Shown piece after piece: positions 20,401 to 58,295 of a stretch of 64,000 bases of DNA. Positions within the stretch are counted from its first letter, which is position 1; every line of letters starts with the position of its first letter. The notes beneath the pieces are model-generated. The model was not told the DNA's origin, did no database searches, and worked only from the letters and a program-made list of their open reading frames with translations. The DNA comes from a virus: the IMG/VR virus record IMGVR_UViG_3300023294_000015, positions 1-64,000 of that record. One strand, 5' to 3'. The position numbers and the translations under genes are program-made.

Positions 20401-23400
20401 TGAATTATATTCATATACCTATTACAGAAGCTGAATTATCTCATATGTTTGCTGAAGGTACATCTGGACGTAGTAAATTAGCTGTGTTCTTAGGTAATCC
20501 TAATAGTTTAGGGCTTATTAATGTAGTAAGTACTATGCAAAGAGGTGTTGATCCTTATGCACAAGGTAGTCAGAATGATCGTAACGCACTTACTACTATA
20601 GCTAAAGCAATAGCTGAGTTTCAACCTTCAATGTCTCAAGTAGCTTTTGTTAGCAGTGAAGGTAAAATGGTATATCCTACTTTACAAGCTAGGTTTGCTA
20701 CAGATCATTTAAATCGTATGAAAGGTATTGCAAATAAAGAAACCATAGCTTTCTTTAAAGAATACAAAAGTGATCCTTACTTTAAGTATTCATCATTTTT
20801 AGATGATATGGCTAATAACCCCAGTATAAATCTTAAAACTCGTATTGCTATATTTGACGGTGTTAACGAAGATGGTAAGAAAAAAGCAAGTGTATATTCA
20901 GAAATGAGTAAACAACAGCTAGAATCTACTAAAATGAATTTGTGGTTTAATCGACATCCTGATAGAAAAGTAGAAGACCCATATGGTTATTATCAATTTC
21001 CTGTATTAGCAGATGTTGGTACTATGATGACATTATATCATAAGAAATTTACTATGGAAGAAGTTACAGAACGTCTTAGATCTTCTGCTAAACAAGAACG
21101 TAGTATGATACAATGGGTTAACAAACAAATAGAACCTGTTCAAGAAAAGTTTGATAATTGGTTAAAAGATGTACTTGATGAAAAAGTTGATGTTAAAGAC
21201 ATTAGACCTTTACCTATAGAACTTCAAAAAATACCTACTCAATTACTTATTAACGGTAGAAAGTATAATACATTTACTATCTTTAACGAAGAAACATTTG
21301 ATGATGAAGATGGATTTAATGATTTAGTAGATAAGTTTACTAAGCAAAAATATGAAGAAGAGTTACAATCTATGTTTGATGAAAATATATTAAGTAAAAA
21401 CGATAAAGGTTTTATTACTGATACATCTAATACAGTTGATAGTAGATTCTTTAAAAATACTAATAATCTTGAAAAATATATATACAATAGTATGTATATG
21501 AACTTTCAATTAATGACTGTTTTTACAGGTGATATTGCTTATTACAAAGGTAAAGGTAATGTTAATATGGAAGATGTATTTAAACGTGTTAAACAAATAT
21601 ATTCACCTGGTGAGCGTTTAGGTGTTGATATTAATAATACATTTAATGGAGTAAATGTAAGACCTGAATACCATATTGCTTATGTAAGAGATGCTACTGA
21701 ACAAAATAAAATAGTTACTGAACATAAAGCTATTATTGAAAAAACATTTCCTGGAGAAGCTAATAAAAATGTAAGAGCTGCTTTTGGTCTTGGTACTAAA
21801 GGTGATGGTCTTAATAATACTGATGCGGCTACTTGGATTGATATATTCAGACTTAGAGAGATATATTTAGGTACTGAACAATGGACAGATGCTCATAATG
21901 ATATTTATAACAGTATTATGGAAGGTAAGTCAATACCTGCTAATGCTGCTATAATTATGAATCCTATTAAACCTTTTGTATATGGACATACTAAAGTTAA
22001 TATCAATAAAGATAATAACTTAATAATACCATTTCAACATAAGAATGCTGAATTTTTACTTTTACCACAAATGGCTAAAGGTAATCCTCAAATGCAAGCT
22101 ATTCTTGAAAAAATGGGTTATACATTTAAGAAAGATGGTAGTTTTACATTTGATACTAAAAAGCGTGTAATTGATGCTTTAATGTACACTTCTGCTGTTA
22201 AAGTAGGGCAATATGATGTACTTGGTAATATCAATGAAGTAACTAATCTTAATAAACATACATTCTCTAATGCTGATTACAGTATTCAGATGGCTACTCC
22301 ACAACACCATTTAGATGCTAAGAATTTATATGGCAGTCAATTTAGAAAACTATTAATGCAAGGTATTGAAATGGATAAAGATTATTTTTATCCAGATGGT
22401 ACAAGTATTACAGGTAAAGATTTATTTAATCAATATCAAGAATATATACAACTTAACTTACAAGCATCTGCTGATAAACTTAAAGCTGAATGGCACGATG
22501 AAAGTGGTACATTTAATAAAGAAAAGTTTGTAAATCGTCTTAGAGAAGAAATTAAAGATAAAGAATATGGTGATTATTTATTAGAAGCACTTGATTGGTT
22601 AGATGATTCTAAAACTAAAACTGTATTACCATTGTGGCATCCTACAATTGTTGATATGGTTGAGAAGATGTTTAATTCATTCTATAAGAATGGTATAACT
22701 AAACAACCTATCAATGGAGCTTCATTATATAATGCTTCATCTCATGGACTTGAAAAAACTAACGATAAAGGTCTTAGAAAGCCTGAAATAAAGTTTAACG
22801 AAGATAAAAGTATTAATTACTTTGAGGCAATTATGCCTATAACATCTAAACGTGTTATTCAAAAGTATATGAATAGTGATGGTACTATAGATATTGAAAG
22901 ACTTAATAAAGTAGATCAAAAACTACTTATGGGTATATTTTATCGTATTCCTACAGAAAGTTATTATTCAATGTTTCACATTAAAGTAATAGGTTATACA
23001 CCTTCAGGAATGATTATTCTACCTGATGAAATTACTACTATTGCAGGATTGGATTTTGATATTGATAAACTTTATGGATTACTATATAATCTTGAAAAAG
23101 CTGAAGGTGAATTATTACCTGATGAATATGCTAAGTGGGAAACTGCTGATAATACTCCTCAAATAAATACTAAAACTGGTAGAACTTTTACTAAGTCTAA
23201 TATATCTGGTTATGATCCTGAGAGAGGGCGTATTGATTATGCTAAACGTAATGAATTAGAGTGGGATGATGAAGCTGGTAGTTTTAGAAAAGAAACTGAA
23301 ATTAAAGCTGTAGTATCTGGACCAGAAACTAAAGAATCTCGTGATAATATGATAATTGATATTGCTTGGGCTGTATTATCAAGTGAATATACTATGCAAC

Positions 23401-26207: not shown

Positions 26208-29200
26208 TTGTGTAAACATTAAAAGTAGAGAATTTAAGAAACTTGTTGTAGATACAAGCTTACATCCTGTAGTTTTATCAGGTAAAGTTTCTTTATGGCA
26301 AGATAAAAATGGTGTAGAGAATTACCCTACTAAAGAAGATATTATTGACTCTTTTAGTGATGAAAATGTGATGTTTAATATTCCTGATAATCCTATAAAG
26401 AAATTAAGTAAAGCTGAAAAACTTAAAAATCTTACAGAAACTTTTAGTATAGGTACTACGGGTTATTTTGGTAAAATGTTAATGGTTGATATTATAAAAC
26501 CTAAACTTAAAGAGCTTGGATATACTTTAAAACCTACATCTAATGCTAATGGATATTATATAGTAAATGATAAAGGTAGAAGATATATACCAGCTAAAAA
26601 AATCAAATACACAGCTCCTAAATGGTTTAAAGCACCTGATTATAGTAAACCTGCTGTAAAAGAAACTCCTAAAGTTAATAAAGATTTATTTGGTAATGAT
26701 GTAATGTTTCAATTAGACAATAAAGTAAATTATACAATCTCAGAAAATAAAAGTAGTTATATTTTAGAAGAGGAAGGTGCTGAATACTTTATAATGAGAA
26801 TAGATAAATTTGAAGATGTAAACAATGGTGTTTTATATTTAGATGATATATCTACTCCAACTCTTTATAGTCTAGGATTACTCACGAAAAAAACTTTTAA
26901 TTATTCTACTGGGAATAAAATAATAATTACTTCTGCAATATACAAGTCCAAATCTCCAATTAAAGCATTAGCTAAAGTAACAGAATTTTTAGCTAGTAAA
27001 AACATAAATACATTATCGTATAATTTTAACGATTATGTAAAAAACAAACCTATAATAGATAATATTTATAAAAGTTTTATAAATAATACAAAGGTAAATA
27101 AAACTTTACAGGAAGTATTAAGAGATAGAAATACTACATCTGAAACATCTGATTATTTAAACGGTTTAATTCAAGAAATACAAGATAATTTAGTTGATAA
27201 ATTAGGAGTTTCGTTAAGTCTTGTAGAAGTAATTCCTTTTATAAATATTTCTTATGAAAATGATAAGTTGTTTTTAAATGTAAACTTGGAAAAATTACAA
27301 GTATTATTTAATAAAAGTAATACGTTTTTTCAAAAAGAATCTACTGAGCAACCAGTAGATCCTAAAATTGATGATGCTATGACACGATTGATATCTGAAC
27401 TAGGTATTGATTTAATTAATTATAATGAGTATGCTGAATACTACGAGCAAAAAGAAGGTAAAAAACTTACTGCCGTAGCTGTAGCTGATATGTTTAATAA
27501 AGTTATAGCAGTTAAAGAAGGTCATGCTGATAAAAGTACTCTAGCACACGAAGTAGGTCATTTTATTGAATTTGCATTACATAATGATAAACGTATTATG
27601 TTTGCTATTGAAAATGTACACTTAACAGAGCTTTGGCAACAAAAGTCTGAGCAGTATATGCAGGAGTATAATAATGATGAAAACAAAGTACGTAGAGAGA
27701 TTGTAGGGCAATTAATAGGATTATCTTTAAGTGATAATGTAAAAAATGAAAAACCTTCTTGGAAACGTCTTATGTTACAAGTATGGAATAAGTTCTTAGA
27801 CTTCTTTACGTTTGGTTCTAAAGCTAAAACAACACGTATAAGGAACTCTATTGATGCTATAGCTAAAGAAACACTTAAAGATAGTAGTAATGTCAAGAAA
27901 GGCTTAGAATCACAAGTATCTAATAAAAATAATGTATTATTTGAATTAGACCCTAAAGACTTTAAGAATAGTAGAATACTTGAAGGTGAACTTAAAACTT
28001 TAAAATCAGCATTAAGTATTATTGTAAATAAAATTAATGTATATAAAAAAGCAGGAACTGAAGAAATTACAACTACAGAAAGGGATCTTCGTGATGTATT
28101 GTCAAAAGCTATAAGAGATGTTGATGATAGAGATGTTGATGATTATAACAAGAATTATGTTACTATGGGATTAATCAACTTTATAGCTAGAATGGAAGAA
28201 GAAGCACAATTTATAATTGAACGTGTTGATATTATAGAAGAAGCTATACAAGACGGTGTATATAATAATGAATTAGATCAACTTTCTAAACTTCTTAAAC
28301 AGATGAATGATTATATGCTAGTATATGAACCTTTACTGGAAGATTTAATGCCTACTGTTAAAAAGCTAAAACGTAATTCTACTGAAGATGTTGAATTGTA
28401 TGATAAAATACTAAAGGCTTTTGATACTATTGATACAGGTATTAAAACTATGAAAAAAGATTATGTAAAGCATACTAAGTTTATACTTATGTCAGTAGCT
28501 AAAGATATTTTTAACGGAATGGAAAATTTAGCAAATAATCCTGTAAAATTAAAAAGAGAATTAGATTTATTTGAAGCTCAATTAAGTGAAAAAGTAGGAG
28601 ATCTTAGTTTTGCACAAACTTATATTGATGCCGCAGGTACTTCTCATGATGCAGTAATAAAACTTATAGATAGATTATATAAAGAAACCAAAGAAGATAC
28701 AAATAAAGAAGTTCTTGATATTAATAGAGATATTATTGATCTTCATGAAAACTTTGTAGAAGCAGGAGGAAGAACTACTAAATTTATGGCTGAATTAGAT
28801 AAAGATGGTAATGTTACTGGTAATATTGTAGGAGAGTATAACGAAGCTCAATTTAATGAAGCTAAGAAAGTATTTACAAGTAAGTTAGATAAAGAATATG
28901 GATTGCCAGAAGCTAATACAAGAGATGAGTATATAACTCGTGATAAAAAATGGTATGCTCTTACTGAAAGTCAAAGATCATCTTATTGGGGAGCTGTGGA
29001 AGTATGGGAAACTAATAATACAGAAACATCACCAAAGTTAAAAGAACTTCTTAATACTAAATATAATAATATAATAAAATCAATAATACCTCTTAAACAT
29101 GATAGAGATATTTTATATGCTTTACTTGATAAGTACCCAAACAATAAAACAGATCATAGAGTCGATAAAAAAATGATGGATGAGCTTAAAGAGTCTAATA

Positions 29201-31224
29201 AAGCTCTTTATAATAATTTTACTAAAGTACGGCTTACATTTCGAGAATGGAGAAGTAAACGTGAATATGCTGATTTTGCAGGAAATATAACATATAAGAA
29301 AGAATTAGCTATACCTAAATTATCAATTTATGGTAATAAGCAATATACAGCTATTATGAGTAATCCTACCGAAAAGAAATATTACGAAGGTATGATGAAA
29401 ATACGTAAAGATTTATTAAAATCTCTTCCAGAGGAGATTGTAAATTCTATGCTTATGGTTCAAATACGTAAAGACTTTATAGAACGTATTAAAACTGATC
29501 CTAAACGAACTATGCAAGAATCTTACAAAGATGCTGTTGAAAAGCGTGAAACTGACTACGATTATGGTGTAAAGACGTTTAATGAAGATAAAACTCAAAT
29601 GAAACATATTCCTATATTGCATTATAGGAAACTTGATAATATGAAAGATCTTTCGTTAGACTTTACAGCAGGAATGATGATACTTGCTGATATGGCTATT
29701 AATTACAAAAACAATAATAAAGTAATTAATATTGTGAATATTACAAGCGATGTACTTAAAGTAAGAAAAGTATTCAAAGCTACAACTGGAATAGAAGGTG
29801 GTATAAATAAAATAACTGATAAATTTATGCTCAATAATACTACAGCATTAGAAACTGTTGGCGGTAGAGGTCATCTTAGATTTCAAGAATATATAAACAC
29901 AGTTTTTTATAACGAACTTAAAGATGATGACCAAGGTACTACTTTTGGTTTTGATACTTCTAAATTAGCAGATGCTCTTATTAAGTATACAGCTATGAAC
30001 TCTTTAGCATTAAATATCTATGCAGGATTTAATAACGTAATGCTTGGTAATATAATGCTACGTGAAGAAGCTTTTGTAAAAGAATATATTAAACATAAAG
30101 ATTTATTATTTGCTACTAAAACTTATTGGAGAGAATTGCCATCATTAATGATTGATATGTTAAAATTACGTTCTAATAATAAAATGAGATTAGTCTTTGA
30201 AGAACTAGATGTTTTTCAAGATCATGGGCAACGAATACAAGAAGTAAATGCTGATAGAACTAACTTTGGTAGAATGTTTAGTTTAAGTAATATGTTTATT
30301 ATTAACAAAGGAGGTGAGCATCAAATTCAAGGTCGTTTAGCTTTAGGAATGATGAGTAATTTAAAACTTAAAGATAAGAACGGAAATGAAATTAATTTTT
30401 ATGATGCTTATGAAGTAGATAATTATCGTCTTAAACTTATGGAAGGTTTGACTAAAGAAAATGGTAAACCTTTTACTGAAAAGGATATTAAATCTTTTAA
30501 AATAAAACTTAAAAAAGTTAATAATGATCTTCATGGTATTTATAACTTAACAGATAGAGCACTTATACAGAAATATTGGCAAGGTAGAGCTGCTATGTTA
30601 TTTCGTAAGTGGTTACGTCCAGGTTGGAATAGAAGATTTCAAAGTCATGATTATGATTTTAGTCTTGATAAAGATATAGAAGGTATGTATGTTACAAGTA
30701 CTAAGTTTGTAGTATCTCTTTATAAAGAATTACAAGCTGCTAAATTAACTTTTGCAACAGCAGGAGAAGCATACGATAAATTAGAAGATTGGCAAAAAGC
30801 TAATATCAAACGTAATATAGCAGAAGTAGGTTATTTTGTAGCATTAATGGTTGCTGGTACACTACTCGCATCAATTGCAGGAGATGATGATGATGATTGG
30901 TTACTTAATATGACAGCTTATCAAGCTAATCGTTTAAGTACTGAAATAGGTTTTTTTGTGCCAGGATATAACGCTACACAAATTACTACCTTGATACAAT
31001 CACCATCTGCTACTATTAATCAAATTGATAAAATAATGGATCTTGTAAAAGTAATAGACCCATTTATAATAGGTAATAACGATCCTTTCCTTAGAGAATA
31101 TCAATCAGGTAGACATAAAGGACAAACTAGACTTAAAATATGGTCTAAAAGAACTATACCTATGTGGGATTCAGTAGATAGTTGGTTTTATCCAGAAGAA
31201 AAATTAAAATTCTTTACTAACTAA
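26197..31224 (+). CDS. Giant virion protein with zincin motif
   Basis: 1675 aa. Residues 451-455 are His-Glu-Val-Gly-His with nearby helix-forming residues, matching a zincin metalloprotease active site. The middle 800 residues are long charged helices and probable coiled coil. Near residues 1545-1560 an Ala/Val/Leu-rich stretch could be one membrane segment. Overlap with the RNA polymerase gene and shared HExxH architecture suggest the two act together, perhaps in processing or ejection of the cargo. It is the last + strand gene. Confidence 0.6.
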   Translation: MANNCVNIKSREFKKLVVDTSLHPVVLSGKVSLWQDKNGVENYPTKEDIIDSFSDENVMFNIPDNPIKKLSKAEKLKNLTETFSIGTTGYFGKMLMVDIIKPKLKELGYTLKPTSNANGYYIVNDKGRRYIPAKKIKYTAPKWFKAPDYSKPAVKETPKVNKDLFGNDVMFQLDNKVNYTISENKSSYILEEEGAEYFIMRIDKFEDVNNGVLYLDDISTPTLYSLGLLTKKTFNYSTGNKIIITSAIYKSKSPIKALAKVTEFLASKNINTLSYNFNDYVKNKPIIDNIYKSFINNTKVNKTLQEVLRDRNTTSETSDYLNGLIQEIQDNLVDKLGVSLSLVEVIPFINISYENDKLFLNVNLEKLQVLFNKSNTFFQKESTEQPVDPKIDDAMTRLISELGIDLINYNEYAEYYEQKEGKKLTAVAVADMFNKVIAVKEGHADKSTLAHEVGHFIEFALHNDKRIMFAIENVHLTELWQQKSEQYMQEYNNDENKVRREIVGQLIGLSLSDNVKNEKPSWKRLMLQVWNKFLDFFTFGSKAKTTRIRNSIDAIAKETLKDSSNVKKGLESQVSNKNNVLFELDPKDFKNSRILEGELKTLKSALSIIVNKINVYKKAGTEEITTTERDLRDVLSKAIRDVDDRDVDDYNKNYVTMGLINFIARMEEEAQFIIERVDIIEEAIQDGVYNNELDQLSKLLKQMNDYMLVYEPLLEDLMPTVKKLKRNSTEDVELYDKILKAFDTIDTGIKTMKKDYVKHTKFILMSVAKDIFNGMENLANNPVKLKRELDLFEAQLSEKVGDLSFAQTYIDAAGTSHDAVIKLIDRLYKETKEDTNKEVLDINRDIIDLHENFVEAGGRTTKFMAELDKDGNVTGNIVGEYNEAQFNEAKKVFTSKLDKEYGLPEANTRDEYITRDKKWYALTESQRSSYWGAVEVWETNNTETSPKLKELLNTKYNNIIKSIIPLKHDRDILYALLDKYPNNKTDHRVDKKMMDELKESNKALYNNFTKVRLTFREWRSKREYADFAGNITYKKELAIPKLSIYGNKQYTAIMSNPTEKKYYEGMMKIRKDLLKSLPEEIVNSMLMVQIRKDFIERIKTDPKRTMQESYKDAVEKRETDYDYGVKTFNEDKTQMKHIPILHYRKLDNMKDLSLDFTAGMMILADMAINYKNNNKVINIVNITSDVLKVRKVFKATTGIEGGINKITDKFMLNNTTALETVGGRGHLRFQEYINTVFYNELKDDDQGTTFGFDTSKLADALIKYTAMNSLALNIYAGFNNVMLGNIMLREEAFVKEYIKHKDLLFATKTYWRELPSLMIDMLKLRSNNKMRLVFEELDVFQDHGQRIQEVNADRTNFGRMFSLSNMFIINKGGEHQIQGRLALGMMSNLKLKDKNGNEINFYDAYEVDNYRLKLMEGLTKENGKPFTEKDIKSFKIKLKKVNNDLHGIYNLTDRALIQKYWQGRAAMLFRKWLRPGWNRRFQSHDYDFSLDKDIEGMYVTSTKFVVSLYKELQAAKLTFATAGEAYDKLEDWQKANIKRNIAEVGYFVALMVAGTLLASIAGDDDDDWLLNMTAYQANRLSTEIGFFVPGYNATQITTLIQSPSATINQIDKIMDLVKVIDPFIIGNNDPFLREYQSGRHKGQTRLKIWSKRTIPMWDSVDSWFYPEEKLKFFTN

Positions 31225-33108: not shown

Positions 33109-35733
33109 TTATCCTCCGCACTTACTACTTCCACAGCTTTTACAACTAAGACAACCTTCTTCCATTACTATATTAGAGCTATCACCACAGTTTTCACACT
33201 TGGCTTTTTCAATAATACGCTCTGTACGTGCATATTTCTTTAAAGTACGGCTCAACGCCTTACCAAAAGAAGTTATGTCACCAGAAGTCTTCTCAAGCTG
33301 TTCTACAAGGAACGTTACGTCACTTCCATGTCTTAAAGAAGTGCTGCAAAGTCTCGTTATAATAGCTTCTTCACCTGTCATTTCAGAAGTTATATTTTCA
33401 GAATATAATTCTCCATTTGTATAAAGATCATATCTACCTTCTTTAAGTTTAAGCAATTCACCATTTTTAATATCTGTAAAATGATGTAATGCAAATACTT
33501 CATAAGGTTTACCATCATACAATCCTATAATAACATTCCATTTAGTACCTTTAGATACAGTAGTGTATATTTCAACTTCTAGTGAATCTGGTCTTTTAAG
33601 AGCATCTTTATACTCAAATGTATCAGTTTTCTTTTCATTATTGCTTACTAATACACCTGTACGACTTCCTTCTACATAAACTGTAACACCTTTAAGTTTA
33701 AGTTCATATGATTTCATATAGATATTTTGAACCTCTTCTAATGTAACTGTTTCAGGTAAATTAAGTGTACTGCTAATTGCATTTGTAGTATATTTTTGGA
33801 GTATAGATTGCATTTCTACTCTTTTTACCCAATCAATATCATTAGCTGTACTACCATACCAAGGAGATTCTTCAAAGCATTGTTGTAAATCTTCATTTGA
33901 CATTGTTGGTATATCACCTTCTACAAAATGAGGATGTCCAATATTAATCCAATCTTTAAATTTACTATGTAACACAGGAAATTCTTGCCATGAATCTTTG
34001 TTTTGATCGACAAAATCTACTCTTACATCTTTATCAGATGGATTAACTTTCTTTCTACGCATATAAAATGGCATAAATAGTGGTTCACAACCTGATGATG
34101 TACCTGTAAGAATCGAAACACTTCCTGTAGGAGCAATTGTTGAAAAGCTGACGTTACGTCTACCATATTTAGCCATACGTACTGATTGTTCATGAAAATC
34201 AGCTCTTAAATAAAAATAAAAACTATTAGCTGGTTTGTAAAATCCTTCTTCATTTAAAGCAATACCTTCTTTTATTGCATCAAATCCTTCAAATGAACCT
34301 CTCAATATAGATAAATCAATTGTACAATCTAATTCTCCACGCATTTTAGTAGACATTACTAACTCTACAATTTTTAAAGCTTGATCAGAATCATACTTTA
34401 GATTTAATGCGGCTAACATATCAGCTAAAGCAGTAATACCACTACCAGTACGTCTACCTGCTTTTGCAGCTTTCAATATATTCTGCCATAAAGTAAGTTC
34501 TGTAGCTTTAACTTCTACAGGTTGATTATCAGATTCTATCTTACATATAATATCTTCAACATTTTCAATTTCAAGATCTACTAAATCATCCATCAATCGT
34601 TGTTGTTCATAAGCAATTTTATACACTAACTCAAAATCAACTTCTGCTGTATCTGTAAATGGATTCTTAACCATTGAAAACAAATTCATACACATTAGTC
34701 GGCAAGAATCGTATGGTTGTAAAAATTGTTCACCACATGGATTACTGCTTACAGGTGTAAACTCTGGATACACACTATCAGGTGACATATCAAGAACATT
34801 ATCCCAAAACATTAAACCTGGCTCTGCATTTTCTTTAGCTTGAGTTACAATAGTATTCCAAAGTTCTTTAGCTTTGATTTTTTTAAATGATGAACCTACT
34901 ACAAATCCAGTTTTTAATGTGTTATATTCTGCATCAATTAAAGCTTCTTTGGATGTATAATCAAAACCAAATAAATCTTCCTCTATAATATCACATGGAA
35001 ATCTAAGAGTGTAATCAGTATCATTCTTAACAGCTTCCATAAACTCATCATTAAGACGAATTGATATATTAGCTCCTGTTACTTTACTTCTATCAGATTT
35101 GATTGTAGCAAACTTCTCTACATCTGGATGATTAATATCAATAGATAGCATTAAAGCACCTCTTCTGCCGTTTTGAGCTACTTCTCTTGTACCATTAGAA
35201 AACCTTTCCATAAATGACACAACGCCAGTAGAAGTTCCCGCAGAATTAGTTACTGACGTTCCTTCTGGACGTAAATTAGAAATGTCTTGTCCAACACCTC
35301 CTCTACGTTTCATCAGTTGCACTTGTTCTTGTTCTGCTTTAAATATACCACCATAGCTATCTAAAGCTGATGGTATTACAAAACAATTACTTAAACTAAT
35401 AAACTTATCTTTTCTACCAAGACCATACATAATAGAACCTTGCGGTATAATGTATTTAAAATCTTTGAATAATTCATATATAGTTTCTTGCGTTAAAGAA
35501 CTTCTTTCAATTCCATAATCACTTAAAGAATCTATTAATCTATCTGGATTTCTTACTGTTTGTAAAAGAGTATATTCTTTGTCTGAATAACTACTTTCAA
35601 TTCTAGCAAATTCTTTTGCTAATCTTTTATGCATTTGGTCGTAATGAACTTCTCCTTCTGCTGCATACTTACCTTGCCAAACCGATATTGCGAGTTCATC
35701 CCCCCCAAACATTTCTTTTTTCACCTCTTCCAT
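33109..35733 (-). CDS. nrdJ: Class II (adenosylcobalamin-dependent) ribonucleoside-diphosphate/triphosphate reductase
   Basis: 874 aa. Makes deoxyribonucleotides for phage DNA. The substrate-site Leu-Ser-Asn-Cys-Phe-Val-Ile-Pro-Ser, the catalytic Asn-Pro-Cys-Gly-Glu-Gln and a Cys-rich tail (two CxxC pairs and a final Cys-Gly-Gly) are the hallmarks of NrdJ. No ATP-cone and no small-subunit gene are seen nearby, which favours class II over class I. Its first 13 bases overlap the HNH gene upstream. A downstream structured RNA lies 13 bases beyond the stop. Confidence 0.92.
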   Translation of the reverse strand: MEEVKKEMFGGDELAISVWQGKYAAEGEVHYDQMHKRLAKEFARIESSYSDKEYTLLQTVRNPDRLIDSLSDYGIERSSLTQETIYELFKDFKYIIPQGSIMYGLGRKDKFISLSNCFVIPSALDSYGGIFKAEQEQVQLMKRRGGVGQDISNLRPEGTSVTNSAGTSTGVVSFMERFSNGTREVAQNGRRGALMLSIDINHPDVEKFATIKSDRSKVTGANISIRLNDEFMEAVKNDTDYTLRFPCDIIEEDLFGFDYTSKEALIDAEYNTLKTGFVVGSSFKKIKAKELWNTIVTQAKENAEPGLMFWDNVLDMSPDSVYPEFTPVSSNPCGEQFLQPYDSCRLMCMNLFSMVKNPFTDTAEVDFELVYKIAYEQQRLMDDLVDLEIENVEDIICKIESDNQPVEVKATELTLWQNILKAAKAGRRTGSGITALADMLAALNLKYDSDQALKIVELVMSTKMRGELDCTIDLSILRGSFEGFDAIKEGIALNEEGFYKPANSFYFYLRADFHEQSVRMAKYGRRNVSFSTIAPTGSVSILTGTSSGCEPLFMPFYMRRKKVNPSDKDVRVDFVDQNKDSWQEFPVLHSKFKDWINIGHPHFVEGDIPTMSNEDLQQCFEESPWYGSTANDIDWVKRVEMQSILQKYTTNAISSTLNLPETVTLEEVQNIYMKSYELKLKGVTVYVEGSRTGVLVSNNEKKTDTFEYKDALKRPDSLEVEIYTTVSKGTKWNVIIGLYDGKPYEVFALHHFTDIKNGELLKLKEGRYDLYTNGELYSENITSEMTGEEAIITRLCSTSLRHGSDVTFLVEQLEKTSGDITSFGKALSRTLKKYARTERIIEKAKCENCGDSSNIVMEEGCLSCKSCGSSKCGG

Positions 35734-36248
35734 TGTTCTCCTCTTATTATCTTATTTATTTGTGATTTACCCACATTAAAATGATTAGAAAGTTTTTCAG
35801 TAGATATTCCCTCCTTGTTAAATTTCCTAATGTTATCTACTTTATCCCAAGTTAATTTAGCACTTCCGCTTAGTTCTCCTACAGCGCCTTTGTTTAAATT
35901 AGTATCATATGCATGTTTTACATTTTGAGAACGTGTACACCATTCTAAATTGGAGTAATGATTATTTGCTTTATTTCCATCTTTATGATTTACTTCTGTG
36001 TAATTAAATGGATTATCTACAAATTCACTAGCTACAAGTCTATGAATTAAATGATTATTAAAAGTTATATAGTATGTATTAGCACTCAATCTTGCTTTTA
36101 ATAAAAATGGTTCAACCGTACCTTTTCTATTTCTATAGCCAACCTTGTGTAAAGTCCCTATATTAGCTATGTCCCCAAAATTAGATACTGCATGTTTTCC
36201 ATTTTCTAATAATTTCCAATCTTTACCAACTTCACTTATTTTATCCAT
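35721..36248 (-). CDS. NUMOD4-HNH homing endonuclease
   Basis: 175 aa. An N-terminal NUMOD4-like segment (Asp-Trp-Lys...Val-Ser-Asn-Phe-Gly) precedes an HNH core near residues 85-112 (His-Arg-Leu-Val-Ala, Val-Asn-His-Lys-Asp-Gly, Asn-Asn, Leu-Glu-Trp-Cys-Thr), and a C-terminal helix-turn-helix-like tail. Free-standing endonucleases of this type cut a cognate site and spread into phages lacking them. It sits against the ribonucleotide reductase start, a common target gene. Confidence 0.9.
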   Translation of the reverse strand: MDKISEVGKDWKLLENGKHAVSNFGDIANIGTLHKVGYRNRKGTVEPFLLKARLSANTYYITFNNHLIHRLVASEFVDNPFNYTEVNHKDGNKANNHYSNLEWCTRSQNVKHAYDTNLNKGAVGELSGSAKLTWDKVDNIRKFNKEGISTEKLSNHFNVGKSQINKIIRGEQWKR

Positions 36249-37326: not shown

Positions 37327-38139
37327 TTATTTAAATTTTTCTTTTTTTCTTGCTAAGAACATTTCACAATCAGAATATATATAATTATAAAACAGTTCTA
37401 TGTACTTTTTTTTGTAAAATACAATATTAAACAATCCCTTTTCGTTTTGATAAACTTTCGGGTCAATATTTAATTCTTGTTTCAACAATAGAATTAACCA
37501 ATTTTTAAATAATAATGAATTAGTAAAAAATAATACTTTTTTACCTGAATTGTTTTTACCTATAGACCCATCTCCTTCAAATACTCCTCTAATAAAATGT
37601 CTAATAAATTTATTAGGAATTTTAATTTCACCAATTGTATTACTCTTATTATTAGTAACTCCTAAATTTAATAAGTCGTAACACATTTTTTTATTATCTA
37701 TTGAAAATCTATATAATGGTTTACAATAATAATTTGTACCTTTTTTATATCTTGCTTTTCTATAATTTAAAGGTTTAAACCCGTTAAATATTTTAATATT
37801 AAAGTAATCTAAGATGTGTCTATCATTTTCAACTATCGTTAAAGAAATTGTGTGTTTTCTAGAACCTAAATAAACATTACCATCAGAGGCTATCCAACCT
37901 AAAAAATAGGCTTTCCATTCACAGTCTACATTGACAAATAAATTACTATCTATTTTATATTTTATAGCAGCTTCTGATGGAGATCTTAACAAGCCTAACT
38001 TACTCAAAAACTTTTGAACACTGATAGTTTTTAAATTGTATTTCTCGGCAATCTTCCTTGATGATATACCATTATTATAATTCTCTATTATTTCTTTTTT
38101 AAAATTAGTTGGTATTCTTCTTACATTAAAATTCTCCAT
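37327..38139 (-). CDS. LAGLIDADG homing endonuclease
   Basis: 270 aa. Two LAGLIDADG helices are visible: Tyr-Phe-Leu-Gly-Trp-Ile-Ala-Ser-Asp-Gly near residue 83 and Phe-Ile-Arg-Gly-Val-Phe-Glu-Gly-Asp-Gly near 187, each ending in the catalytic acidic residue. An N-terminal helix-turn-helix (residues 8-40) would bind DNA. It is free-standing, between a zinc-ribbon gene and a ribbon-helix-helix gene. Confidence 0.9.
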   Translation of the reverse strand: MENFNVRRIPTNFKKEIIENYNNGISSRKIAEKYNLKTISVQKFLSKLGLLRSPSEAAIKYKIDSNLFVNVDCEWKAYFLGWIASDGNVYLGSRKHTISLTIVENDRHILDYFNIKIFNGFKPLNYRKARYKKGTNYYCKPLYRFSIDNKKMCYDLLNLGVTNNKSNTIGEIKIPNKFIRHFIRGVFEGDGSIGKNNSGKKVLFFTNSLLFKNWLILLLKQELNIDPKVYQNEKGLFNIVFYKKKYIELFYNYIYSDCEMFLARKKEKFK

Positions 38140-41742: not shown

Positions 41743-42105
41743 TTATTTATTATTTTCATTATGCCACTGTATAAAATTTATTATTGCTTTGTATACAGGA
41801 GTAAAATCTTTTTCAAATTGATAATTAAAATTATAATCGTATCCTTGACCAAAATTATGTATACAACAATTTTTATTAGATATTAACTGTACAGCAACGT
41901 CTAATCTTTTTATTTTATCAACAACCTCCATTAACCAATTCCAATCAGTGTCAAATTTTAAATTATATTTAAAATTTAACTGGTTATTTAATGCCCAAAA
42001 ATCTTCAGAAACCCATACAGTAACATTATTTAATTGTGGGTGCTTAGATAATGTAGCACCCATAAATTTAGCAATTAACATATTGTTTTCATAATTACTC
42101 ATCAC
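41743..42105 (-). CDS. Small phage protein, paralogue of 39389-39748
   Basis: 120 aa. Shares Asn-Asn-x-Leu-Ile-Ala at the N-terminus, a Trp-Asn-Trp-Leu-Met-Glu-Val-Val core and an Asn-Phe-Ile-Gln-Trp-His end with the 119-aa protein. It is the last gene read through from the ubiquitin-like cassette (4-base overlap). Confidence 0.65.
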   Translation of the reverse strand: MMSNYENNMLIAKFMGATLSKHPQLNNVTVWVSEDFWALNNQLNFKYNLKFDTDWNWLMEVVDKIKRLDVAVQLISNKNCCIHNFGQGYDYNFNYQFEKDFTPVYKAIINFIQWHNENNK

Positions 42106-42581
42106 ACTAATTTTAAATTATTAATCTCTAACTGTTTTTTAACATACAATTGTTCTTCAATCATATCACCTATTACTGTAGGCATTATATTTTGTAGATA
42201 ATTCTGTTCTTGAAAACCTAAAGATACATTTTTTAACTGGTAAGTTATTTTTTTAGTATCTTTAGTTTTAATATCTATTGTGTAATCTCCATTAATAACA
42301 GCTTCATCATGTAATTTTTTATAATGCTCTACAACATCAATATAAATCATTGTGTAAGTTACTAAAGGAGAAATGTATGTCCCCTTTAAATATCTAATTT
42401 TTTTGCATATTACACCTGATTGTGCTCTAACACCATTTCTATAATTTTTCATAATATTAGTACCAGATAAAGCCATATACAAAGGAACCATAGTTTGATG
42501 TTCTATAATAGGTAATTTAATAAAACAATCATGTTCTTTTAAGTATTCTTTTTCAGAATTACTTACTACTTTAAATCTCAT
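42102..42581 (-). CDS. Unknown protein coupled to the E1-like gene
   Basis: 159 aa, no cysteine motif or known fold recognisable; mixed beta/helix with a C-terminal charged helix. ATG overlaps the E1-like stop by 4 bases, so it is probably translationally coupled and belongs to the ubiquitin-like conjugation cassette. It could be an adaptor or substrate. Confidence 0.6.
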   Translation of the reverse strand: MRFKVVSNSEKEYLKEHDCFIKLPIIEHQTMVPLYMALSGTNIMKNYRNGVRAQSGVICKKIRYLKGTYISPLVTYTMIYIDVVEHYKKLHDEAVINGDYTIDIKTKDTKKITYQLKNVSLGFQEQNYLQNIMPTVIGDMIEEQLYVKKQLEINNLKLV

Positions 42582-43258
42582 TCTTCTATAGTTATAAGAT
42601 TAATTTCCATATCTTCTCTGAATTTAAAAGGTATAGTTCTCATGGGTAATCCCATTTTAATATTAGCTAAATGATTAGTAAACATTACTGTCATTCTAGC
42701 ACCTATTAAAGCACCTGTGTGAGATGTATTTTTTAAAGAACATATCTGTGGTGGAATTTCAGAATCATCAAAGAGAGTTTCTCTATAGCGGTCTTCATTA
42801 CCTTTAGTTACAGTATATACTTCATAATTCTCAATAGTCATACGACCATCAATAAATAACTCCCTATCTTCACGTTTGAACCATTGTTCAAACATAGCTT
42901 TACGTGCTATCATATTATCAAAGCATGAAAAGCATACAGTACTTACATACGTACCTTCTACAAGCTTTTGATTTACTGGGAATAGCTTATCATCATCAGC
43001 TTCTGTATAAGCCTTTATAAGGTCTATAACAGCTTCTGTTTTATTTTTACCTATTGCACTTTTAGGAAATAATTGACCTGAAAGATTTATTATTTCTACT
43101 ATATCATCATCATACATAATTAATGTATGGTCACCTGCTCTGGCAATATCTAATGAAAGATGAGTACCGATAGTCCCTAGACCACCGATACTTACCTCTC
43201 TTAGTTCACCAAACCAATCAACACTTGAATAACGTGCTCTTGATTCTTTAATTTTCAT
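42578..43258 (-). CDS. ThiF/E1-like ubiquitin-activating enzyme
   Basis: 226 aa. Gly25-Gly-Leu-Gly-Thr-Ile-Gly31 begins a nucleotide-binding Rossmann fold; Asp50-Asp-Asp-x2-x-x2-Asn-Leu and Gln62 follow, then Lys71/73 and Ser-Cys-Phe-Asp-Asn near 111-115. Cys173 (in Ile-Cys-Ser-Leu) is the best candidate for the thioester cysteine. E1 enzymes adenylate the C-terminus of a ubiquitin-like protein. The arginine normally before Gln62 is Gly here. It follows the JAB gene after 2 bases. No thiamine or molybdopterin genes are nearby, which favours protein conjugation. Confidence 0.85.
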   Translation of the reverse strand: MKIKESRARYSSVDWFGELREVSIGGLGTIGTHLSLDIARAGDHTLIMYDDDIVEIINLSGQLFPKSAIGKNKTEAVIDLIKAYTEADDDKLFPVNQKLVEGTYVSTVCFSCFDNMIARKAMFEQWFKREDRELFIDGRMTIENYEVYTVTKGNEDRYRETLFDDSEIPPQICSLKNTSHTGALIGARMTVMFTNHLANIKMGLPMRTIPFKFREDMEINLITIEE

Positions 43259-43260
43259 AA

Positions 43261-44409
43261 TTATTCCATTATTATTTCACCATTAATTTCATAAGCTACT
43301 AAATCTTCTGCACAGTTTTCAAATACTTCTACTAAATGCTCTACTTCAGATTTCCATTTTGGAACACCTAAGTAAGTTTTAAGAATACTTTTACATTTGT
43401 TAATACCTTCAGACATACAATCTTCACCAAACTCATCATATGAATTAGTGATAAGATATTGTCCAATGTCATCTAAACGAGTATCAAAATCATCAGGACT
43501 TAATTTAGTAAGTTCCATTAGTATTTGACCAATTTCTTTAGTTGGTTTATCACTACATGACAAAGCCATTTTAAGAAATGTGGCGTACTCTCTATTAAGT
43601 TTTTTATCGTTATTAGCAAGCTTTAAAGCTATTTGTTTACCGTAACCATATCCATATTCATTCCAATCTCTGTATGCTGTAATACCTGCTCTACCATAAG
43701 ATAATTGTTTAGCTGCTGCTTTAGCCTCATTAGCTACAACTTCTGCTTTAAGTTCATCAATACGAGTTTGCATTACATCATCATTCCATATAATGTTTTC
43801 TTCAATTTTAACATCAAGGTCAAACATAATCATAACTTTTTCTGCTGGAAATTCCATAGTATGCTCCGTACCAGTTTCATTGTAAACTGCTTTATTAGCG
43901 GGAATGTCTACAAGTTTAACTACTTTACATGAATTTACTTTTGCAAAGTTTACAATTAAAGATAAATAATATGAATCTCCATCATACTTATCTACATTAT
44001 TATGTAATTCTTGTAAATCAGTTCCAGAAAAGAAAGTTTTCATATCATGATGAGTATGGCAAAATCCTGTTCTACTCATAAAGTAAGAAGGTATTCTCTG
44101 GTCCATTTTACTTAATTCAGAAGCATGATTATCACTTTCTGTATAAGTTTCTGAACCAATACCCATAGGGTAAATATCAGCAATTTTAACTATAAAATTA
44201 GCTGGATCATTAATACTACCAGATACTTTATCATAAGTAATAAAAGCACACCATTCTGTACTTCCGATTTGCTCATGAAGCATGTTAATACGCTTTTGTA
44301 CATAATCAGTAATTATTACTGTACCCCTACCTTTAAGTTCAATTACTGGGTATTTAATTACTGGTGTTGGTTTTGTTGTTACTGGACTTTTTGTTATTGT
44401 TTTATTCAT
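43261..44409 (-). CDS. JAB/JAMM metalloprotease (deubiquitinase-like)
   Basis: 382 aa. Glu52 and His118-x-His120-x7-Ser128-x2-Asp131 form an exact JAMM zinc-protease signature. JAB proteins trim ubiquitin-like precursors or remove them from targets. Residues 200-382 form a separate Ala-rich and helical domain of unknown role, absent from minimal JAB proteins. Located between the E2-like and E1-like genes, with gaps of 7 and 2 bases, as in PRTRC-type cassettes. Confidence 0.9.
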   Translation of the reverse strand: MNKTITKSPVTTKPTPVIKYPVIELKGRGTVIITDYVQKRINMLHEQIGSTEWCAFITYDKVSGSINDPANFIVKIADIYPMGIGSETYTESDNHASELSKMDQRIPSYFMSRTGFCHTHHDMKTFFSGTDLQELHNNVDKYDGDSYYLSLIVNFAKVNSCKVVKLVDIPANKAVYNETGTEHTMEFPAEKVMIMFDLDVKIEENIIWNDDVMQTRIDELKAEVVANEAKAAAKQLSYGRAGITAYRDWNEYGYGYGKQIALKLANNDKKLNREYATFLKMALSCSDKPTKEIGQILMELTKLSPDDFDTRLDDIGQYLITNSYDEFGEDCMSEGINKCKSILKTYLGVPKWKSEVEHLVEVFENCAEDLVAYEINGEIIME

Positions 44410-44416
44410 AATTTGT

Positions 44417-45505
44417 TTAATTTACAATTTCGTATTCTTCTTCAAATTTATATACAGATAGTAAATCATTTATATGGTTTGTTAATGTATATACTATGTT
44501 ATTATCTACATGTTTAAATATAGTAGAAATATATTGTTCATACTTATTAACATCTGTAGGTTTACAATTTACAACTACATATTTATCATTAAAATAAACT
44601 TCTGATATTTTTGATGATGATTGTAGTTTTGAATAATATTCTAATTTACTGGGGTCGTATTTTTTACTGTCTCTATTAAAATCATTTTTTTGTACTATTA
44701 CTTTATTACATACATTAACTAAAGAATCATGTTCGATTTTTATATTATTATTTGTATCTAACCAAGTTTTAATACCCGACTGTCTTAAAATGTTAAGAAT
44801 TATAGGCTCATAACCTATTATATTACTGGTTGAGTTTATACCTAATGAGTTACCATAAATATTAAACATATAACAATAAGGTATTCCTTCAATACTTTCC
44901 CACCTAATAAAACTATCAATTATTAAAAATAAATCAGTAAAATCAATGTTTTTTAAAAATTTGTAAGTATCTGTAATATGAGCTAGTTCAGAAGAACCTA
45001 AACACATATCTTGAAATTTACAATGGGTATTTGCTATATAAATCATATCTTCTATAACACTACTTTCATTTGGTATACAATGACTAAACAAATAACCTTC
45101 TTTTAATTCAAAAGCAGTGTAATTATCTCTAAACATTTTAAAATGTTTAAGATAATATTTATTATCAATTTTATGATAATTTAAAGTAAATTTAGTATAT
45201 ACACCTTTAATAAAATGTTTTTCATCTTTACTATTAAAAACCTCCACATCTCCATAATAAGTAAGTACGTGATACTGACCAGTTAATGTAAATTGAATAT
45301 CAATATTATCTACATTTTCATACGCAAAATGATACTCATTAAATACTTTGTTAAGTACTTTGTATAACTCTTTATATTTACCAGTTTGACTGTATACTTT
45401 TTTAGTAGGTATTACATCAGATTTAGCATCTTTAGTAAAATAACCTGTATTACTTTTAAATGAGAAGTATAACTCATTTTCTTCAATGTTAAGTTTAAAT
45501 ATCAT
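44417..45505 (-). CDS. E2-like ubiquitin-conjugating protein (PRTRC B-like)
   Basis: 362 aa from ATG 45505; an ATG at 45574 is in frame but lies upstream of a terminator hairpin and is rejected. Residues 158-170 read Ala-Asn-Thr-His-Cys-Lys-Phe-Gln-Asp-Met-Cys-Leu-Gly; the Cys168-Leu-Gly with upstream Asn resembles the catalytic cysteine region of E2 folds and of PRTRC protein B. Phe-x-Asp-Ser-Phe-Ile near 195 continues the pattern. The flanking domains are unknown. The E2 call rests mainly on this motif and on the Ubl-JAB-E1 neighbours. Confidence 0.55.
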   Translation of the reverse strand: MIFKLNIEENELYFSFKSNTGYFTKDAKSDVIPTKKVYSQTGKYKELYKVLNKVFNEYHFAYENVDNIDIQFTLTGQYHVLTYYGDVEVFNSKDEKHFIKGVYTKFTLNYHKIDNKYYLKHFKMFRDNYTAFELKEGYLFSHCIPNESSVIEDMIYIANTHCKFQDMCLGSSELAHITDTYKFLKNIDFTDLFLIIDSFIRWESIEGIPYCYMFNIYGNSLGINSTSNIIGYEPIILNILRQSGIKTWLDTNNNIKIEHDSLVNVCNKVIVQKNDFNRDSKKYDPSKLEYYSKLQSSSKISEVYFNDKYVVVNCKPTDVNKYEQYISTIFKHVDNNIVYTLTNHINDLLSVYKFEEEYEIVN

Positions 45506-45532
45506 ATGATGTTTAGTTATGAAGAAATATAA

Positions 45533-45563
45533 AGAGAAGTGTAACTTTATGTCACACCTCTCT
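45533..45563 (-). terminator. Intrinsic terminator after the ubiquitin-like gene
   Basis: A 10-bp stem (45533-45542 with 45554-45563, one G-T wobble) with an 11-nt loop, followed on the - strand by a U-rich run. It lies in the 72-base gap between the ubiquitin-like gene and the E2-like gene and should reduce read-through. Confidence 0.75.
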
Positions 45564-45577
45564 CTATTCCTCAATTA

Positions 45578-46123
45578 TTATTTACCGCAAAGAGTTTTTG
45601 TCTTTACAACAAGAGCATCAAACTCAGCATTCAATTGTGTAAGACTTACACCACCAATTACAGCAAGTGATTGATTACTCAAAGCATCTACCAATACGTC
45701 TAATGCTGCATAAACTCCATCAAGAGCATCTCCTAATGTAGACACTTCATCGTCTGATTTTTCTTGAAAGCTATTTACAAGCTCTGCAAGTACATCAGCA
45801 CTTTGAGAATTGTATTTTGCAAAATGTGCAGCACCTTCATCAGAAGTATGATACTGTTCTTTTGCATAAGCTAAGTTTGCTGCATACTCAGAAGCACCAG
45901 CATTCATTTTAGCAGGTGTTACAAAGATATAAACATCATCTGCATCGTTAGGAATAAGTGCATCCCCATCTACGAGGTCTGTCTGTGTACCACGGATTAC
46001 TACTCTACATCCTGCATAATTTACAGTAGGTGTAGCTGCTTTTAAATCATCAAAAGTTCTACCAGTCCAGCTTTCGAGTGTTACAGGTGCTCCTCCATTT
46101 GCTTTAATATGTACGTTACTCAT
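45578..46123 (-). CDS. Ubiquitin-like beta-grasp protein with C-terminal helical extension
   Basis: 181 aa. Residues 1-75 show the beta-beta-helix-beta-beta order of ubiquitin folds: Val-His-Ile-Lys, Val-Thr-Leu, helix Thr-Phe-Asp-Asp-Leu-Lys, Arg-Val-Val-Ile-Arg, and Asp-Val-Tyr-Ile-Phe-Val-Thr-Pro, then Asn-Ala-Gly near 73-75. Residues 78-181 are an Ala-rich helical tail. The JAB enzyme could cleave after the Ala-Gly to expose a conjugatable end; that is inferred. Ala-rich composition and a following terminator suggest strong expression. Confidence 0.6.
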   Translation of the reverse strand: MSNVHIKANGGAPVTLESWTGRTFDDLKAATPTVNYAGCRVVIRGTQTDLVDGDALIPNDADDVYIFVTPAKMNAGASEYAANLAYAKEQYHTSDEGAAHFAKYNSQSADVLAELVNSFQEKSDDEVSTLGDALDGVYAALDVLVDALSNQSLAVIGGVSLTQLNAEFDALVVKTKTLCGK

Positions 46124-51896: not shown

Positions 51897-52505
51897 TTAT
51901 TGTTTACTCATTGATTTAGGAATCTCATCATCTTTAATAGTAACTTTAAACCCAACATTACCTGCTGTGTGAAATACTACTATACCTTCAGGATTCATAA
52001 AACCTTCTACAGCATAACTACCTGTTATTTTAAGTATATCTAATGTATTATCAATAGCTAAACTATTAAACATTCCTTTATATAATATAGGAACTGTATT
52101 AATACCTTCTGGTAATACATCTTGATATTTTATAACACGTAAATCTGCTTTAGGTACTAACAAAGGAGTTTTACCATGTTCACACCATCTTACAGTATTA
52201 AACAAAGAAAGTCTTTTTTCACCTTTAGACAATCCGTAACCTCTTTGTATTCCGCTTCCCCACCATTCACCAAAATGACGACCTACACCTAATTGTAGTA
52301 TAGTATCTTTATTACCTTCTACCCATTTTGCAAAACCATGATTATCATCTTGTGGTGTAATCCAACGTGTTCTACTACCAGCAATAATATCACCATCTTC
52401 TGTAATAAGTATTTGAGCGTTAGTACCATCTATTTTTTCAGTAATGATAATATCTCTATTTAATCTTCCCATTTTAGGAAAACCGTGAAATTCTAATTCT
52501 TTCAT
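51897..52505 (-). CDS. RNA ligase-like nucleotidyltransferase
   Basis: 202 aa. Motif I Glu-Lys24-Ile-Asp-Gly-Thr-Asn (Lys24 accepts AMP), motif III Phe-Gly-Glu-Trp near 93, motif IV Glu-Gly-Ile-Val-Val near 175 and motif V Gly-Phe-Lys-Val-Thr-Ile-Lys near 187 are all present. Such phage ligases mend tRNAs cut by host anticodon nucleases. Shorter than T4 Rnl2 since the C-terminal domain is lacking. Confidence 0.85.
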   Translation of the reverse strand: MKELEFHGFPKMGRLNRDIIITEKIDGTNAQILITEDGDIIAGSRTRWITPQDDNHGFAKWVEGNKDTILQLGVGRHFGEWWGSGIQRGYGLSKGEKRLSLFNTVRWCEHGKTPLLVPKADLRVIKYQDVLPEGINTVPILYKGMFNSLAIDNTLDILKITGSYAVEGFMNPEGIVVFHTAGNVGFKVTIKDDEIPKSMSKQ

Positions 52506-57409: not shown

Positions 57410-57804
57410 TATTTTATTAATTTAAGTGCTTCTTGTAATGCTAATTCTAAACATTCCTCGTAAGTACCGAATGTTTCATTTAGTTCAAAATAATTACTTT
57501 GTGTGTGACGATATTCATAACTTGTTATGATATATCCCCATTCATTAATACTGCCTTTTTTAATATTAGGTAATAAAACTATAATTATATTATGTTCTTC
57601 TTTCAGCCAGCGTTGTAGTAAACTTTGCGAATATACTTTAACCTTATTTTCTATATCCCATCTTGAAATAATCATTTGAAATTTATTTCTTAGTATGACT
57701 CTTCCTGAATTATTAAAATTAGCATAAGCATTATTACTTTTTAAATTACAACCCTTCTTTTTAGCTAAAATAGCTGTTTCATACGTAATTAATTCTTCAG
57801 TCAT
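57409..57804 (-). CDS. Conserved small phage protein, unknown
   Basis: 131 aa. A Ser-Gln-Ser-Leu-Leu-Gln-Arg-Trp-Leu-Lys-Glu core and a C-terminal Thr-Tyr-Glu-Glu-Cys-Leu-Glu-Leu-Ala-Leu helix resemble a group of Bacteroides phage proteins of unknown function. It shares one base with the polymerase start and overlaps the Rieske-motif gene by 4 bases. Confidence 0.65.
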   Translation of the reverse strand: MTEELITYETAILAKKKGCNLKSNNAYANFNNSGRVILRNKFQMIISRWDIENKVKVYSQSLLQRWLKEEHNIIIVLLPNIKKGSINEWGYIITSYEYRHTQSNYFELNETFGTYEECLELALQEALKLIK

Positions 57805-58295
57805 TTTATTAATTTTTTAGTTTTAGCATTAAATTGTAAACTATGTAAAGGACAAGTTATTACTCCATTTACAGGTTTTACTTGTGATAAATCATAACCT
57901 CTATGTGGACATTTACCTTTATGAATACATTTATGTTTTAATTTACTTTTTTTTATAAAATTAATAGGTGTACTATATTCAAACCTTTCATCAATAACAG
58001 GTAATACAAAATATTCAATTTTACCATGTACTTTTTCATTAGGTCTTCCTATATTTAAAAACCTATATCTAGTACTTCTATCAGCATCTTTAGAAATAAC
58101 TCCTCCTTGTTTTACAAACCTAGTATCTATATGATAATGATATTCTTTTTGTCCATTTTCAAAATCATTATGTTTTAAATATAATACAGGTGTTATATTA
58201 GGTATTAAATCTTCATCTATAGTTGTGATGCAAGGTACTAAAAAATACTCATCAATTTCTATAGGTCTTTTAACATCTTTAATGTTTTGAATCAT
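57801..58295 (-). CDS. Rieske-motif iron-sulfur protein
   Basis: 164 aa. Cys129-Pro-His131, 16 residues, then Cys148-Pro-Leu-His151 is an exact CxH...CxxH Rieske cluster signature, near a Gly/Asp loop. Rieske domains carry a [2Fe-2S] cluster and usually pass electrons to an oxygenase or reductase. The first 100 residues are beta-rich and could be a partner domain. It is encoded right next to the polymerase block; a redox role with nucleotide modification is possible but unproven. Confidence 0.65.
   Translation of the reverse strand: MIQNIKDVKRPIEIDEYFLVPCITTIDEDLIPNITPVLYLKHNDFENGQKEYHYHIDTRFVKQGGVISKDADRSTRYRFLNIGRPNEKVHGKIEYFVLPVIDERFEYSTPINFIKKSKLKHKCIHKGKCPHRGYDLSQVKPVNGVITCPLHSLQFNAKTKKLIK

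Follow-up and report, generated by a model that had tools for sequence, protein, structure and literature searches.

Does a bacteriophage encode a complete pathway that attaches a ubiquitin-like protein to other proteins? The question is raised by four adjacent genes of IMGVR_UViG_3300023294_000015, a 67,342-base virus record in IMG/VR of which we analysed positions 1 to 64,000 (the window, 64,000 nucleotides). A sequence-only reading had attributed the window to a crAss-like phage and the four genes to a beta-grasp ubiquitin-like protein (Ubl), an E2-like protein, a JAB protease and a ThiF-like E1, with a coupled gene for 159 amino acids (aa) behind E1. The five minus-strand open reading frames (ORFs) lie exactly where they had been placed, and comparison with related loci confirmed that the four genes are a real, adjacent and well-conserved cassette. 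Conserved residues and structural models make it likely that this cassette is a self-contained ubiquitin-like protein conjugation system. Its genes and predicted functional residues are as follows.

45578..46123, minus strand: Ubl precursor, 181 aa, with a beta-grasp domain (residues 1-76) and a helical tail (residues 77-181)
45896..45898, minus strand: codon of Ubl Gly76, the predicted JAB cleavage point and conjugation glycine, from conservation
44417..45505, minus strand: probable E2 (UBC)-like protein, 362 aa from its ATG, with candidate Cys168 (in Cys-x-Gly) and His142, from conservation, model and profile
45002..45004, minus strand: codon of E2 Cys168, position computed from the ORF start
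43261..44409, minus strand: JAB (JAMM) metalloprotease, 382 aa, with an additional C-terminal domain, from motif conservation and hhalign
44017..44058, minus strand: JAMM motif H118-T-H120-x7-S128-x2-D131, from sequence and conservation
42578..43258, minus strand: predicted E1-like adenylating enzyme of the ThiF fold, 226 aa, with candidate catalytic Cys173, from profiles and conservation
42740..42742, minus strand: codon of E1 Cys173, position computed from the ORF start
42102..42581, minus strand: gene X, 159 aa, overlapping the end of E1 by 4 bases

An alignment and profile of E1 were used to pull 80 of 150 confirmed IMG/VR loci, to which nine further loci from databases, the window itself and L003, which is a piece of the window, were added to give a set of 91. 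As the loci had been selected via E1, its presence in all 91 is given by construction, whereas this does not apply to the matches of the other family profiles (Ubl in 86, E2 in 89 and JAB in 90 loci). Where the four components are not all present, the locus lies at a contig end or is the window slice, except for L026, which lacks only a recognised Ubl. The gene order Ubl-E2-JAB-E1 recurs in the great majority of loci, E2 and JAB overlapping in 77 of 82 and JAB and E1 in 53 of 83 cases, and such a recurrence among dozens of diverged relatives rules out a chance arrangement. No direct DNA-level similarity was found in the phage collection. A tblastn search with E1 returned 78 phage records, namely Steigviridae (including crAss001, DAC15 and cr128_1), Flavobacterium phages, and a few Xanthomonas and Erwinia phages. 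Where Steigviridae genomes are annotated, the block is placed between primase and uracil-DNA glycosylase (UDG), and in crAss001 the same cassette corresponds to genes gp76-gp79, a point that the sequence-only reading did not make; the existing labels of the cassette genes in crAss001 and DAC15 are 'thiamine biosynthesis', 'metalloprotease' or hypothetical. A pattern-based scan of bacterial chromosomes detected E1 only on two small contigs of metagenome-assembled genomes; a bacterial-chromosome source was rejected on these grounds, and at the sensitivity of that scan E1 thus looks phage-borne.

The AlphaFold2 model of the Ubl has a predicted local distance difference test score (pLDDT) of 92-97 over residues 1-70 and the element order strand-strand-helix-strand-strand, as in beta-grasp proteins. 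Among the matches listed by a PDB fold search with this model nearly all are ubiquitin or ubiquitin-like domains, confirming the beta-grasp assignment of the sequence-only reading. At the sequence level, scans of Pfam and NCBIfam gave no usable match, and a profile search of the PDB gave no meaningful one. A feature absent from the sequence-only reading is a predicted processing-site glycine: all 75 distinct homologues carry Gly at window position 76, preceded by Ser in 62 and by Ala in 10. This glycine is never the last residue, but is always followed by a tail of 1-209 residues (1 residue in nine homologues, 3-5 in six, 21 in one and 55-209 in the remainder). The nine relatives with a single extra residue end in KSGK, KSGF or AAGY, and several complete homologues are just 75-83 residues long. 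As Gly76 is invariant but masked, processing would be needed, and the arrangement looks like the anatomy of a processed ubiquitin-like precursor. The tail itself differs by clade, the gut crAss clade keeping a conserved helical tail (window 45578-45895), and one family member matches the SAP domain (3e-4), so that the released tail may have a role of its own.

The protease that would carry out this processing is encoded two genes downstream. The 382-aa protein contains the exact His-x-His-x7-Ser-x2-Asp motif on which the initial JAB assignment was based. In a set of 81 sequences, 95% keep each of Glu52, His118, His120, Ser128 and Asp131, and a 35-member alignment shows no exception at any of these five residues. 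Comparison with plasmid JABs by hhalign gave a probability of 92 across HSH...S..D. A role of JAB as Ubl processor is suggested by a comparison of 13 systems from plasmids, Bacillota and a jumbo phage (L094-L105 and L107, the latter being phage PhiXhv-12). Where the Ubl glycine is masked or the Ubl is fused to JAB, a JAMM motif is nearby in 7/7 systems (L095, L096, L097, L099, L102, L103, L105), whereas a Ubl ending at its glycine has one nearby in 1/6 (L104, but not L094, L098, L100, L101 or L107), with the flanks of L094 being short and the Ubl of L107 only proposed. Fisher's test gave p of about 0.005 for this post hoc comparison of a small set of related, non-independent loci. In the Bacillota plasmid systems (L095:4042-4980, L097:4112-5056 and L105:4197-5570) a Ubl-like stretch ending in Lys-Lys-Gly is fused to the N-terminus of JAB, which suggests cleavage in cis.

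The E1 matches Pfam ThiF with E=5e-11. In a profile search of the PDB, MccB (5e-13) and PaaA are at the top, with UBA5 (4e-12) and UBA6 also among the best matches, followed by ThiF, the NEDD8 and SUMO E1s, Cap2 and BubCD. The candidate catalytic Cys173 is present in 100% of 80 E1 sequences, and the glycine loop, D52, N58, K73, D114 and R119 are invariant as well, in line with what had been predicted for this gene. Several E1s of crAss-like phages (L001, L002, L006) have a long, often acidic N-terminal extension of up to about 200 residues, from which the window E1 is free. The gene behind E1, gene X, is coupled to it as described; its homologues are located directly 3' of E1 in 35 of 91 loci (E=9e-9 for the window protein). 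It has no match in Pfam and is a possible partner of the cassette.

The 362-aa protein is probably E2-like, as judged from conserved residues and its predicted structure. Cys168 is a cysteine in 78/78 aligned sequences covering the column, and H142, C168, G170, E203, S204, G207 and P209 are invariant among 68 sequences. In the predicted structure a helix, a four-strand meander, the cysteine-bearing loop and further helices follow each other in the order of a UBC domain, with a pLDDT of about 90 in the strand region. Comparison of the E2 profile with the plasmid family Prok-E2_D, the best of nine profiles tried, gave a score of 24.0 with the cysteines aligned, as compared to a mean of 10.3 and a maximum of 20.4 for 150 column shuffles. 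A Foldseek search of BFVD returned phage homologues and, weakly, one phage protein named type II CBASS E2 domain; Pfam and NCBIfam yielded no usable match, and a profile search of PDB sequences yielded nothing meaningful. We set aside the idea that the protein is a degenerate JAB, suggested by a His-Ser-His present in both, because the alignment spans 16 columns only.

A related arrangement was observed in the jumbo Xanthomonas phage PhiXhv-12 (L107:4760-8636), where a small protein ending in SGG is followed by an 892-aa protein with HPHM...GSLCLGS and then by a ThiF-like E1. The 892-aa protein, which adjoins this related E1, contains HPHMAVPSSQESHGSLCLGS and scores above 100/100 shuffles against the phage E2 profile, while a profile comparison of the small protein was no better than shuffles. 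No JAMM motif was found within the 16.6 kb read, which agrees with the notion that a trimming protease is superfluous where glycine is already the last residue of the Ubl.

Several observations weigh against the assignments made so far. The JAB scores below the cut-off of Pfam Prok-JAB (E=0.012), and the plasmid system L104 has a JAB although its Ubl ends at Gly. When the phage Ubl was compared with plasmid Ubls by profile, the result was no better than shuffles. In E1 the Arg of the usual Asn-x-x-Arg-Gln motif is replaced by Gly in 70 of 80 sequences and by Asn in 8, and is never Arg; with the Arg of Asn-Leu-x-Arg-Gln missing, adenylation is not assured. For the E2-like protein, a Foldseek search of the PDB gave no significant match (among the matches listed, the highest probability, 0.21 for the autophagy E2 Atg10, is not significant), the score against Prok-E2_D drops to 18.6 when Cys-x-Gly is masked, so that the motif carries most of the signal, and the JAB profile reaches 20.9 via the common His-Ser-His. 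The fold prediction of the sequence-only reading held for the Ubl, whose model has the ubiquitin fold, and the E2 call stays probable, with the invariant Cys-x-Gly and the UBC-like order in the model on one side and the lack of a significant PDB match on the other.

The position of the cassette in the genome bears on its purpose. A 1396-aa virion protein encoded in the window, a homologue of the stabilization protein, matches 84 phage records, which by name are crAss-like Bacteroides isolates, cr* metagenome phages, Cellulophaga #14 phages and a few others; on the basis of this shared virion gene the crAss-like label stands. The minus-strand arm encodes ribonucleotide reductase, an exonuclease, primase, a DnaB-like helicase and DNA polymerase, and the cassette is located in this replication and nucleotide-metabolism arm. 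At about 32 kb coding strand and GC skew switch together, marking the boundary between virion arm and replication arm. Two giant ORFs (3919 aa and 1675 aa, window 14448-31224) have no PHROG match; in size and location they resemble the giant RNA-polymerase-related proteins known from crAss-like phages. Further genes of the window are:

35721-36248 and 37327-38139: HNH_3 and LAGLIDADG_3 homing-endonuclease-like genes, near the ribonucleotide reductase gene
51897-52505: RNA-ligase family protein (Pfam RNA_ligase, 2e-12)
57801-58295: Rieske [2Fe-2S] domain protein, near the DNA polymerase gene

In the mechanism that we propose, JAB would cleave behind Gly76 of the Ubl precursor so that this glycine becomes C-terminal, a step for which the comparative data argue. 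From its conserved residues, E1 would adenylate this glycine and hold the Ubl as a thioester on Cys173. The Ubl may then pass to Cys168 of the E2-like protein and on to target proteins, where lysine is the probable acceptor; this transfer is the weakest step of the scheme, and JAB could also strip the Ubl from its targets. Given its location in the arm for replication and nucleotide metabolism and its retention throughout entire groups of phages, the cassette most likely acts on proteins, of the phage or of the host, that take part in phage DNA replication, and not on one particular host defence protein. On balance we favour the view that a complete virus-encoded ubiquitin-like system belongs to the core genes of Steigviridae and of the crAss-like and Flavobacterium phages related to them, and that it serves replication by reversible tagging of phage or host proteins.

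The same conjugation chemistry might instead serve counter-defence, blocking Bil or the CBASS Cap2/Cap3 pair or tagging defence proteins. The E1 and JAB folds are common to defence enzymes, and PADLOC reported for the cassette partial matches of the CBASS E1-E2 type and, for E1, a weak one to BilD; an inhibitor, however, would need far fewer than four genes, and in the Steigviridae examined the block keeps its place next to primase and UDG, unlike typical, variable anti-defence genes. We regard this purpose as unlikely, and from position and conservation a core function in the replication module seems likelier than an optional counter-defence. The chemistry itself could also differ at the E2 step, with the 362-aa protein being a structural or adaptor protein and the Ubl going from E1 directly to its targets, as proposed for some bacterial systems. 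The lack of a significant PDB fold match and the motif similarity shared in part with the JAB profile would agree with this, but the invariance of Cys-x-Gly in the covered sequences, the UBC-like order, the gene position as in E2-D systems and the similar motif beside the jumbo-phage E1 render it a doubtful alternative to an E2.

Two further readings dispense with a protein tag. In a sulfur-transfer or small-molecule pathway a ThiS/MoaD-like carrier would be trimmed by JAB, and E1 would generate a thiocarboxylate that is used for a cofactor or a modified nucleotide. Other bacteria are known to trim masked sulfur carriers with JAMM enzymes, the E1 is of the ThiF type and the cassette lies among nucleotide-metabolism genes. 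This pathway nevertheless appears improbable given an E2-position protein with an invariant Cys throughout the loci, UBA5 among the nearest solved E1s, and no rhodanese, ThiG or molybdopterin-type gene in an incomplete scan of the window proteins; the E1 also deviates from ThiF/MoeB sulfur-carrier enzymes, as neither Asn-x-x-Arg-Gln nor a score above the equivalog cut-offs was found. MccB and PaaA, the top profile matches of E1, would point to an enzyme that adenylates a peptide or the Ubl for a small toxic or signalling compound. Their matches span only the common nucleotide-binding core, however, and the cassette also includes a JAB and a protein of ubiquitin fold whose glycine is conserved, which makes such an enzyme very improbable as compared to the conjugation system.

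crAss-like phages are among the most abundant human gut viruses, and most of their genes are unassigned. Reading the crAss001 and DAC15 genes as one ubiquitin-like system provides a specific hypothesis that is testable in culture. No description of the cassette was found in the titles and abstracts of open papers searched for crAss in combination with ThiF or ubiquitin, nor is it mentioned in the passages of Iyer et al. 2006 (PMC1779556) on bacterial operons and the lambda pair. If our reading is true, the core genome of a phage holds a full ubiquitin-type pathway, and protein tagging by bacterial viruses may be similar to that in our own cells. It would also bear on how such pathways have moved among plasmids, phages, the defence systems of bacteria and the ancestors of eukaryotes.

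How, then, does the cassette compare with known systems? No curated PRTRC, Bil or CBASS model was convincingly matched by it. Bil (BilABCD) anti-phage operons have Ubl, E2, E1 and JAB components, as does the cassette. The latter is phage-borne, however, and only BilD matches its E1, weakly (E=0.007), with no other Bil model matched. Type II CBASS Cap2/Cap3 and the 6A/6B-type E1-E2 operons have a similar E1 core, but in these a single E1-E2 fusion protein works together with a nucleotidyltransferase or metallo-beta-lactamase protein, whereas the phage has separate genes, a stand-alone Ubl, a 226-aa single-domain E1 and no nucleotidyltransferase in the adjoining genes scanned. In the UFM1/UBA5 pathway of eukaryotes a single C-terminal Gly is masked by a short tail, the E1 is minimal, and UFM1 is trimmed by a cysteine protease. 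The masked single Gly and the minimal E1 are analogous in the phage, where the candidate trimming enzyme is a JAMM protein; common descent is supported by shared folds only.

The bacterial operons and the lambda tail Ubl/JAB pair are described by Iyer et al. 2006 (PMC1779556). Lambda TAPI/TAPK is likewise phage-borne, with the JAB thought to cut at the glycine of the Ubl, but its genes are tail-assembly genes without E1 or E2, in contrast to a cassette in the replication arm. The PRTRC/Prok-E2_D plasmid systems, resembling row 6d of that work, are the closest in arrangement. They have the order E2-JAB-ThiF, with the Ubl upstream of E2 in several (L096, L099, L102, L103) and fused to JAB in some Bacillota, and the JAB HSH...S..D and E2 Cys-x-Gly motifs are found in plasmid and phage. 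The E1s are homologous (hhalign probability 98.9), the Ubls have a single conserved glycine, terminal or masked, and the plasmid sets lie on mobile DNA, often next to replication or repair genes, as in the phage. The differences are that the phage proteins do not match PF14460 or TIGR03737, that E1 is far below the TIGR03736 cut-off, that no separate F gene lies between Ubl and E2, and that no PRTRC ParB/E genes were seen. Of the likeness to PRTRC and Bil proposed by the sequence-only reading, the part concerning the PRTRC/E2-D gene order thus stands, while Bil is represented by the weak BilD match alone. As the phage proteins fail the PRTRC/Prok-E2_D models and the CBASS-type and BilD matches are partial or weak, the cassette resembles these systems rather than being a member of those tested; even though it fails their family models, it appears from its sequence to work like a PRTRC/E2-D-type system.

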